The notes under the pieces are model-generated. The model ran no database searches, was not told the DNA's origin, and saw nothing but the letters and a program-made list of their open reading frames with translations. The position numbers and the translations under genes are program-made. Below are positions 43,322 through 44,761 of a stretch of DNA of 55,979 nucleotides, in pieces. The first letter of the stretch is position 1. Each line of letters opens with the position of its first letter. This DNA is from Burkholderiales bacterium (GTDB lineage Bacteria; Pseudomonadota; Gammaproteobacteria; Burkholderiales; Ga0077523): positions 2,461-58,439 of the forward strand of contig JALHMS010000003.1 in the NCBI GenBank assembly GCA_022843925.1. The letters are read 5' to 3'.

Positions 43322-43649
43322 TGGTGCGCCCAGCCGGGATCGAACCGGCACGACCGAAGTCGAGGGATTTTCCTGCCACTTCGGCTTTCGCCGCCATCGA
43401 TCCGGGCGCCGATGGCGGGCTCCCGGGAGGATGTTCGTGGTCTGGACTTTGTCTTGACCATGGCCGCGAGGCGTTAGGCCGGCGCCGTCAAGTCTCTGCA
43501 CGTTCCCCGTTGGACCGGGGCTTCGCTCAGCGTTGCCTCGCCCGAAGGCAGGGGGTTCGCTGAATTTGACGCCATTCACGCGGGCGCTTTCGCTGCCCGG
43601 TGCTCAGTTTTCTCAAGTCCCTTGCGTCTACCAGTTTCGCCATGGGCGC
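43322..43649 (-). tRNA. tRNA-Leu (anticodon UAA) split by a group I intron
   Basis: 5' exon 43615-43649 (35 nt) and 3' exon 43322-43371 (50 nt) join to an 85-nt tRNA with encoded CCA. Acceptor GCGCCCA pairs with TGGGCGC; D-arm TGGCGAAACTGGTAGACGC; anticodon arm AGGGA-CTTAAAA-TCCCT after splicing; long variable arm CGACTTCGGTCG; T-arm GCCGGTTCGATCCCGGC. The unspliced gene is interrupted exactly between U34 and A35. The upstream promoter is not obvious. Confidence 0.95.
43372..43614 (-). ncRNA. group I intron (IC3-like) in tRNA-Leu(UAA)
   Basis: 243 nt, no ORF. P1: exon CUU pairs with guide GAG (43605-43603), with the U.G pair at the splice site. P4: UCAGCG (43563-43558) with CGCUGA (43532-43527). 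P6: CCCCG (43520-43516) with CGGGG (43509-43505). P7: GACUU (43494-43490) within GUGCAGAGACUUGACGG pairs with AAGUC (43449-43445) within AAGACAAAGUCCAGACC. The last intron base is G. These are the P, Q, R and S elements of a self-splicing group I intron, and the sequence GUCAAAUUCAGCGAA is like the cyanobacterial tRNA-Leu intron. Confidence 0.93.
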
Positions 43650-43778
43650 GCGGCCCGATTCTCTCACGCGGTGCCTGTGCCGTCTCCCCACGGGCGGGGA
43701 CTGCTCCGACCATGCCGGGCGGATCGCCGGCGCCCGGTTCTCCTAGGGAATGCGTGGTCCCGCGGAGGGCGGCCCACC

Positions 43779-43806
43779 TAAAGTCAACCCACGCGGCATC
43801 CGATAA
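43779..43806 (+). promoter_or_regulatory. candidate sigma-28 (FliA) promoter of motA
   Basis: TAAA (43779-43782) is followed after 16 bases by TCCGATAA (43799-43806), against the consensus TAAA-N15-GCCGATAA. It lies 95 bases before the motA ATG. Flagellar stator genes are class 3 genes under FliA in known systems. Confidence 0.6.
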
Positions 43807-43900
43807 GTCTCGGAGCGGCGGCACGGAGAGCGGACGCGCTGGAGACCATCCGGCCGTCATCCGACCCTCGCGCCCCGACCCCTCTCCGGACTTGCATGAC

Positions 43901-44761
43901 ATGACCGTAATCGTCGGCTACATCCTCATCCTGGGCTCCGTGATCGGCGGCTTCGTCATGGCCGGAGGCCACGTGGGCTCCCTCGTGCAACCCCTCGAAG
44001 TGCTGATGATCGGCGGCGCCGCGCTGGGTGCCTTCGTCGTCGCCAACTCGGGCAAGGTGATCAAGGCCACGACCGGCGCCCTGCCGACGGTCTTCAAGGG
44101 ATCCAAGTTCACCAAGGGCCTGTACATCGAACTGCTCTCGTTGCTCTACGACATCCTGGCGAAGGTGCGCAAGGAAGGCCTGATGTCCATCGAGTCGGAC
44201 GTCGAGTCGCCCGAACAGAGCCCGATCTTCTCGAAGTACCCGATCATCCTGTCCGATCACCACGCCATGGAGTTCCTGACGGACTACCTGCGGATCATGG
44301 TGGGCGGCAACCTCAACGCCTTCGAGATCGAGAACCTCATGGACGTCGAGATCGAGACCCACCACCACGAGGGCGAGACGCCGGTGCAGGCGGTGAACCG
44401 CCTGGCCGACGGCCTCCCGGCCTTCGGGATCGTGGCGGCGGTGATGGGCGTGGTCCACACGATGGAGTCGGTGGGCCTGCCGCCCGCCGAATTGGGGAAA
44501 CTGATCGCGGCGGCGCTGGTGGGTACGTTCCTGGGGATTCTGCTGGCGTACGGTTTCGTCGGCCCGCTCGCCACGCTGCTCGAACACAAGCTGACCGAGT
44601 CCACCAAGATGTTCCAGTGCATGAAGGTCACGCTGCTCGCGAGCCTCAACGGCTACGCGCCCCAGGTGGCGGTGGAGTTCGGTCGAAAGGTCCTCTACTC
44701 GACGGAAAGGCCGTCGTTCAAGGAATTGGAGGAGGAGGTGAAGAACCGCAAGGGCAAGTGA
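43901..44761 (+). CDS. motA: flagellar motor stator protein MotA
   Basis: 286 aa with four membrane helices (first: VIVGYILILGSVIGGFVMAG). The cytoplasmic loop has KVRKEGLMSIESDVESP, carrying the Arg/Glu charges that touch the rotor, and LPAFGIVAAVMGVVHTM carries the proline important for proton flow. With MotB it forms the proton-driven stator. It starts 95 nt after the candidate sigma-28 promoter and is followed by motB after 28 nt. Confidence 0.96.
   Translation: MTVIVGYILILGSVIGGFVMAGGHVGSLVQPLEVLMIGGAALGAFVVANSGKVIKATTGALPTVFKGSKFTKGLYIELLSLLYDILAKVRKEGLMSIESDVESPEQSPIFSKYPIILSDHHAMEFLTDYLRIMVGGNLNAFEIENLMDVEIETHHHEGETPVQAVNRLADGLPAFGIVAAVMGVVHTMESVGLPPAELGKLIAAALVGTFLGILLAYGFVGPLATLLEHKLTESTKMFQCMKVTLLASLNGYAPQVAVEFGRKVLYSTERPSFKELEEEVKNRKGK

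Follow-up and report, generated by a model that had tools for sequence, protein, structure and literature searches.

How can a bacterium make its tRNA-Leu(UAA) from a gene whose anticodon loop is split by a ribozyme, and where would such an intron come from? The window, by which we mean the whole 55,979-nt stretch of DNA that was analysed, carries at 43649-43322 on the minus strand a tRNA-Leu(UAA) gene into which a group I intron of 243 nt is inserted, U34 lying on one side of it and A35 on the other. A first-pass annotation of the letters alone had proposed two tRNA halves 243 nt apart, joined at U34/A35, in a betaproteobacterial host. ARAGORN run with introns recovered exactly this gene (an 85-nt tRNA-Leu(taa) with paired stems, an encoded CCA and a 243-nt intron), with coordinates identical to those proposed, 43322-43649, the strand having gone unstated; the assignment of the host was supported as well. 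Joined by the same program, the exons form a complete cloverleaf with a long variable arm.

The interrupted gene and its intron core

The expectation that gene finders might overlook this tRNA was borne out. Default, intronless ARAGORN found nothing at 43649-43322, its window output consisting of two tRNAs at 21 kb, and an Rfam run at the gathering cut-off reported those two tRNAs alone and missed the intron. The Rfam model Intron_gpI (RF00028) matches 43624-43434 over its full length, with an E value of 1.2e-7 against 601 bases and of 2.6e-7 against the 5.57-Mb genome, but at 36.3 bits it lies below the gathering score of 50 bits; the covariance-model check suggested at first pass thus came out positive by E value and negative by cut-off. 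When four relatives from the same clade were scanned at the Rfam cut-off, L410 alone passed (51.8 bits), so intron-bearing genes of this kind are easily missed. The parts of the locus, with the basis for each, are as follows.

43615..43649, minus strand: 5' exon, acceptor 5' strand to U34 (ARAGORN with introns)
43372..43614, minus strand: group I intron, 243 nt (RF00028, 36.3 bits; covarying core)
43602..43607, minus strand: internal guide CUGAGC, P1 partner of exon CUU (sequence)
43577..43602, minus strand: hairpin with GAAA loop, presumably P2 (sequence)
43568..43573, minus strand: P3 5' strand GGCGUC, partner 43486-43481 (helix 1 of the covariation test)
43527..43563, minus strand: P4, 43563-43558 with 43532-43527, enclosing P5 at 43555-43536 (helices 2 and 3)
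43502..43521, minus strand: P6 hairpin (helices 4 and 5)
43490..43494, minus strand: P7 5' strand GACUU (helix 6)
43481..43486, minus strand: P3 3' strand GGCGCC (helix 1 of the covariation test)
43458..43480, minus strand: P8 hairpin (helices 7 and 8)
43445..43449, minus strand: P7 3' strand AAGUC (helix 6)
43372..43372, minus strand: terminal G of the intron, which we take to be omega-G (sequence)
43322..43371, minus strand: 3' exon, A35 to encoded CCA (ARAGORN with introns)
43622..44761, plus strand: motA ORF, divergent neighbour marking a conserved locus (Pfam MotA_N)

The listed start of the motA ORF is too far upstream, within the tRNA. Every group I feature named at first pass is in the sequence: P1, formed by exon CUU and guide GAG with a U.G pair at the 5' splice site, P4, P6, P7 (GACUU/AAGUC) and the terminal G, which closes a 3' end reading GGCAGG. 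The two ORFs overlapping the intron have no Pfam match, and no homing endonuclease ORF was found in it. We assume subgroup IC3 as the candidate name.

The core covaries. We tested a MAFFT alignment of 32 cores with helices from RNAalifold and an added P7 pseudoknot; most of the tested helices are the alignment's own consensus, and P7 was set from the window sequence. (Of the 34 rows first chosen for alignment A1, two were dropped: L287, and L241, whose core was unparsed.) Standard pairs fill 96.4% of 1073 pair cells versus 73.7% in shuffles, covariation is 0.590 versus a shuffled mean of 0.169, and both sides change in 23 of 34 pairs; sliding the helices by 1-3 columns lowers pairing to 33.7-47.2%. 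P3 is 100% paired across the 32 sequences, with changes on both sides in 4 of its 6 pairs, and so is P7, with 3 of 5 pairs covarying. Pairing reaches 99.0% and 96.9% in P4 and P5, 100% and 88.0% in the two helices of P6, and 97.7% and 84.3% in those of P8. The two strands of P7, the guanosine-binding helix of group I introns, change together: the window has GACUU/AAGUC, whereas GACUA/UAGUC and GAGCA/UGCUC are found in other introns. We conclude that the pseudoknotted P3-P7 core of the window intron, P7 included, is supported by covariation.

The window genome is a 99.15% complete draft in 64 contigs. ARAGORN found 37 intronless tRNAs there, among them Leu TAG, CAA, CAG and GAG; a search for a second tRNA-Leu(UAA), proposed at first pass, found none among them. 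Covariance model R1, built on an alignment that includes the window intron, has one match in the genome. Also absent among the 37 are Trp, Thr-GGU, Ile-GAU, Ala-UGC and Arg-CCG, and tRNA-Gly(TCC) sits at a contig end, so gaps may account for part of the absent tRNAs and a second tRNA-Leu(UAA) could conceivably lie hidden in one. Since no other tRNA-Leu(UAA) was detected in this 99%-complete draft, the interrupted gene must very probably splice.

Self-splicing is very probably how the intron leaves. The precursor RNA would fold into the P3-P9 core, and the guide GAG would pair with C32-U33-U34. A guanosine bound by P7 would attack the 5' site after U34; the U34 thus released would then attack the junction behind the terminal G, linking it to A35 and yielding an ordinary tRNA for the codons UUA and UUG. 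We infer both the chemistry and its occurrence in the cell. A dead tRNA with a relic intron, its UUA codons served by another gene, would fit the sub-threshold Rfam score and a draft from which other tRNAs are missing too. It is scarcely credible given that the tRNA stems and the core helices are intact, that the 37 other tRNAs include no tRNA-Leu(UAA), and that the same intron lineage occupies the same locus in a sister genome with exons 98% identical. The group I intron of the window is thus almost certainly functional, and it sits in the one gene for the essential tRNA-Leu(UAA) that was found in its genome.

U34/A35 introns in bacteria, phages and plasmids

A pattern scan over a collection of 84,980 species genomes located further cases; its pattern favours short introns, so its counts give no frequency. 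Among the at least 120 matches listed, 119 parse as tRNA-Leu(UAA) split at U34/A35. By NCBI rank, the matches listed include 41 from betaproteobacteria, 40 from gammaproteobacteria, 10 from Pseudomonadota without class, 15 from cyanobacteria, 4 each from Acidobacteriota, Vulcanimicrobiota (titled Eremiobacterota) and Clostridia, and 1 each from Chloroflexota and Desulfobulbales, both of which look mislabelled. Three MAGs labelled Tatlockia (L201), Desulfobulbus (L249) and Chloroflexi (L272) were left uncounted as further groups; their labels are suspect because the introns fall inside cyanobacterial (L201) or proteobacterial (L249 and L272) groups. L250, with a core of 104 bits and an unparsed 3' exon, was left out of exon-based counts. 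Beta- and gammaproteobacteria commonly carry introns at U34/A35 of tRNA-Leu(UAA); other members of the phylum have them too, as do MAGs of three further phyla.

Model R1 gave any match, the window's own genome included, in 62 of 399 sampled genomes of the order, 67 of 369 of the class and 41 of 398 of the phylum, counts that include its weaker matches and introns of several tRNAs. The best 30 loci of the order comprise 12 Leu(UAA), 10 Ile(CAU), 3 Arg(CCU), 3 Ser(UGA) and 2 Thr(UGU), labelled partly by hand. The 25 loci new in the phylum sample (L487-L511) are 16 Leu by exon pattern and 9 Arg, the labels having been set manually wherever ARAGORN put the junction in the wrong place; those of their genomes that lie outside the class probably belong to alphaproteobacteria.

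The survey also turned up group I introns of other kinds. Some follow the same anticodon-loop CUU in tRNA-Ser (L401, L403, L423, L463) and tRNA-Thr (L399, L402), and others lie in further tRNAs, perhaps Lys (L478, L481) and perhaps Leu-CAA (L459, L464). ARAGORN joined the intron-bearing tRNA of L042 badly; it may be a tRNA-Ile(CAU) whose intron is inserted, unusually, ahead of the anticodon. In the class sample, R1 had many weak matches of about 40-60 bits, some covering model positions 11-83 only, which may be a further intron class or remnants.

Azoarcus has an intron in tRNA-Ile(CAU) and Agrobacterium one in tRNA-Arg. Such introns resemble the window's in being small and scoring with the same model, but they occupy other tRNAs, and the Ile ones follow CAU where the window's follows CUU. 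Introns in tRNA-Ile(CAU) are also reported from Acidovorax and Burkholderia in the available text of PMC8450103. The first-pass annotation placed the known proteobacterial tRNA introns in Ile(CAU) and Arg(CCU), which many of the surveyed loci contradict, as does the Beggiatoaceae tRNA-Leu-TAA, described in the accessible part of PMC4853749 (citing MacGregor 2013) as interrupted and missing from the annotated genes. That case, likewise a putative group I intron in a proteobacterial tRNA-Leu(UAA), differs in coming from Gammaproteobacteria and in having its intron type undefined in that part of the paper, and we liken the two by description, not by sequence. Introns in tRNA-Leu(UAA) are therefore already in print for gammaproteobacterial Beggiatoaceae (PMC4853749, as far as its accessible text goes); for betaproteobacteria we found no description in the open-licence literature searched. 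Where the first-pass annotation had weighed transfer against a wider ancient distribution, wider distribution is the better guess.

Viral records hold such genes too. Two scans were made, the first with a pattern that also caught intronless tRNA-Leu whose 3' anticodon stem continues into TTGAGC, the second with a stricter one. Among the at least 211 distinct viral loci listed from both, 112 parse as tRNAs with an intron at U34/A35, part of these having D arms unlike tRNA-Leu. L288, L290, L297 and similar loci combine the anticodon loop CUUAAAA with such a D arm (GGAAGAGGC). Intron-bearing tRNAs stand among other tRNA genes at L117, L136 and L152; L048 and L117 exceed the Rfam intron cut-off, and a 735-kb uncultured phage record (L453) has an intron-bearing tRNA-Leu(UAA) at 124 bits. 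The phage tRNA-Leu introns of L153, L056 and L091 are about 680-810 nt long and contain antisense ORFs whose resemblance to HNH endonucleases is weak (best E 1e-5, 7.8e-5 and 1.7e-4). Some intron loci in viral records may be host DNA; the intron of viral locus L110 is identical to that of Achromobacter L228 in the columns compared. According to the part of a 2014 review open to us (PMC3984707), the phage introns observed by then were all in protein genes. A blastn search of 50,697 phage records with the window gene itself gave no match.

With L232 as query, 1,282 of 72,556 plasmid records match at 60-80% identity, of which pCTX-M3 and one Cupriavidus record were inspected. pCTX-M3 (NC_004464.2; L451:2495-2793) carries near aac(3)-IId an intron-bearing tRNA-Leu(UAA) that is intact and unannotated, with exons resembling those of L489, L503 and L509 from the same phylum.

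The native locus and elements that break tRNA-Leu(UAA)

We blasted the spliced tRNA against 12 genomes of the genus, with the window genome as G000, and ran ARAGORN on the resulting loci. Seven genomes (G002, G003, G005, G007, G008, G009 and G011) have an intact intronless tRNA-Leu(UAA), three (G000, G001 and G010) an intron-bearing one, and G004 and G006 gave tRNA-Leu(CAA) matches only. In G000 and G001 the intron lies in the native gene near motAB. The intronless gene of G003 is 96% identical to the window's spliced sequence and of the same sequence family as its 5' exon, and the G001 exons are 98% identical to the window's. motAB was detected in 11 of the 12 genomes, within about 260 bases of tRNA-Leu(UAA) in G000, G001 and G003, within 1.4 kb in G002, G007 and G008, and on a different contig in G010. 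A motAB tree of 10 genomes, in which only three inner branches are well supported, makes G000 and G001 sisters (98/98); since both have the intron at the same locus, it is at least as old as their ancestor.

The intron-bearing gene of G010 is of another kind, with a different intron lineage and different exons. Upstream of it an intronless tRNA-Leu(UAA) is represented by its 5' half, the break coming directly after the anticodon loop. The matching 3' half, which includes the shared core, is on contig C19, 216 bases from the contig end, where it reads GGTTCGAN without a subsequent TC. Joined, the halves give an intact tRNA-Leu(UAA), which neither gives alone; both contigs end before the insert's gene content. 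We read this arrangement as the work of an integrated element: it disrupted the anticodon arm of tRNA-Leu(UAA) and brought along a substitute gene with an intron.

The same layout recurs. A broken 5' half stands beside the intron-bearing tRNA in 18 of 125 loci examined (L232, L197, L198 and L262 are examples), or 17 distinct ones, as L044 and L283 (G010) are one place counted once. Their hosts include Variovorax, Hydrogenophaga, Ottowia, Eoetvoesiella, Uliginosibacterium, Lysobacter, Rhodanobacter and Pseudomonas jinjuensis. The CTT of the broken gene is 197-235 nt from that of the intron-bearing copy at the 17 loci. The broken 5' halves vary by host (mean pairwise identity 0.841), whereas the intron-bearing 5' exons on the elements are near-constant across hosts (0.978). 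A pattern search of eight host genomes gave one match each in four and none in the other four; the match lies on the same contig as the 5' half, some 51 kb away in Eoetvoesiella caeni, 66 kb in P. jinjuensis and 41 kb in Lysobacter concretionis, and on another contig in a Uliginosibacterium MAG. In the three named species the joined native halves give an intact tRNA-Leu(UAA), and single halves give none. At the far junction, a 400-aa ORF ends 176 bases away at L433, L434 and L435; that of L433 is a phage integrase (Pfam, E 2.4e-18), and L436 has a similar end sequence, for which the ORF picker listed a different frame.

By Pfam, the intron-bearing tRNA adjoins DUF2274 and TrbI at L197, and CagX/TrbG, VirB8/TrbF and TrbL at L171; L168, L232 and L262 have ORFs that look similar by eye. 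L187, L198 and L251 have other gene content in the stretch covered, so the word conjugative applies to part of the elements. The 9-bp core at the broken genes, CTTAAAATC, is the reverse complement of GATTTTAAG, the att core given for ICEKKS102Tn4677 and ICEbphKF708, ICEs of the Tn4371 family, in the accessible portions of PMC6563109, PMC9960961 and PMC11448139. In those portions PMC9960961 names tRNA-Leu as the element's main target, PMC11448139 has it integrated upstream of a gene for Gly-tRNA, and the word intron does not occur in any of the three. This likeness concerns elements in relatives, not the window, and is drawn from the published core, not from whole sequences. As judged from these matches, the kind of element is already known, and some of the loci belong to conjugative elements of the published type. 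An intron-bearing replacement tRNA on such elements was not described in the open-licence literature searched. A similar logic is seen in tRNA-dependent lysogeny (Guerrero-Bustamante and Hatfull 2024, PMC10865867), in which an integrase acting at a short core destroys the host tRNA and the element makes up for the loss with a tRNA of its own; that system belongs to actinobacterial phages, and the part of the paper available describes no intron in the supplied tRNAs.

We also considered whether the window gene itself sits on an integrated element and rejected the idea, as no broken tRNA-Leu(UAA) half was found within the surrounding 3.2 kb (locus L001).

Origin of the window intron and a possible role

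We built two trees. The whole-intron tree (237 parsed introns, 196 distinct, 143 used after dropping those >320 nt and near-duplicates) unites the window, G001, Uliginosibacterium L255 and a Rhodocyclaceae MAG in one clade (100), far from cyanobacteria. In the core tree (96 cores, 135 columns, aligned to a model built from Leu introns) the window clade, with L410, comprises five Leu introns (SH-aLRT 100) and falls in a starred set that also holds four introns of tRNA-Ser(UGA) and three of tRNA-Arg(CCU) (99), a value that drops to 93, unstarred, when six long-branch rows are removed. Cyanobacterial introns form their own starred clade, beside gammaproteobacterial-class tRNA-Arg introns in the core tree. 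AU tests, run without those six rows on groupings named after a tree had been seen, rejected a single clade of all Leu introns (p 0.00016), were borderline for the window with other betaproteobacterial Leu introns (p 0.043), and did not reject the window with cyanobacteria (p 0.159 on 135 columns), which is not the best tree. Introns in Leu, Ser and Thr tRNAs all come after CUU, so one guide could serve several U34 tRNAs; those in Ile come after CAU. The intron probably entered the window gene from a proteobacterial pool that uses the CUU of U34 anticodon loops, as far as these comparisons indicate. Its source was perhaps, on a weakly supported view, an intron of the tRNA-Ser(UGA) type, and that it moved between tRNAs by reverse splicing is our guess.

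One of the closest known systems is the tRNA-Leu(UAA) intron of cyanobacteria (PMC4033280, in its accessible part). At the cyanobacterial loci we examined, tRNA, U34/A35 site, length and core are the same or similar, and the first-pass annotation was right about the shared insertion site; a special tie to the cyanobacterial core was not shown, the trees placing the closest relatives of the window intron elsewhere. Direct descent from cyanobacterial or plastid introns would explain the same site in the same tRNA, and the AU test leaves it standing, but we consider it highly unlikely in view of the separate cyanobacterial clade, the grouping of the window with tRNA-Ser and tRNA-Arg introns and the rejection of a single Leu clade. 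A donor of another sort lies closer to hand in the elements that target tRNA-Leu, from whose intron-bearing gene the intron could have come by homologous recombination: one such element broke the gene of congener G010, and 5' exons 97.8% alike across hosts make a ready donor. We nevertheless judge this very unlikely, as the introns on elements fall in a different clade, the window's union with other betaproteobacterial Leu introns is borderline rejected, the window acceptor starts GCGCCCA, like G002 and G003, and not GCCCGAG, like the elements, and no broken half was found in the 3.2 kb around the window gene. As to timing, two sisters with the intron at the native locus and seven genomes without it would in principle fit an intron ancestral in the genus and lost several times. 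That history seems unlikely beside one gain on the G000/G001 branch, which would be the simplest on the motAB tree.

One tentative possibility is that a self-splicing intron at U34/A35 shields the tRNA gene from elements that integrate at CTTAAAATC in the anticodon arm. Such elements would insert at this core, destroy tRNA-Leu(UAA) and bring a replacement that is itself safe: its intron would split the core in the DNA, and splicing would restore the tRNA in the RNA. Native intron-bearing genes, the window's included, would lack the attachment site, and retention and spread of the intron would be favoured. The window gene lacks the core, joining its exons restores it, and in none of 237 parsed intron loci is it uninterrupted at the splice junction, a result nearly always expected for any insert at U34/A35.

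If this is true, selection could act on group I introns at anticodon loops through the part they would play in a contest between tRNA genes and integrating elements, and the persistence of small ORF-less introns at one site would become a testable puzzle. Intron-bearing genes of this kind can be missed by tRNA censuses, since their scores can fall under default thresholds, and the tRNA-Leu(UAA) intron site is no cyanobacterial hallmark. In the organism of the window, an essential tRNA of an ordinary proteobacterium would have been made dependent on a ribozyme.
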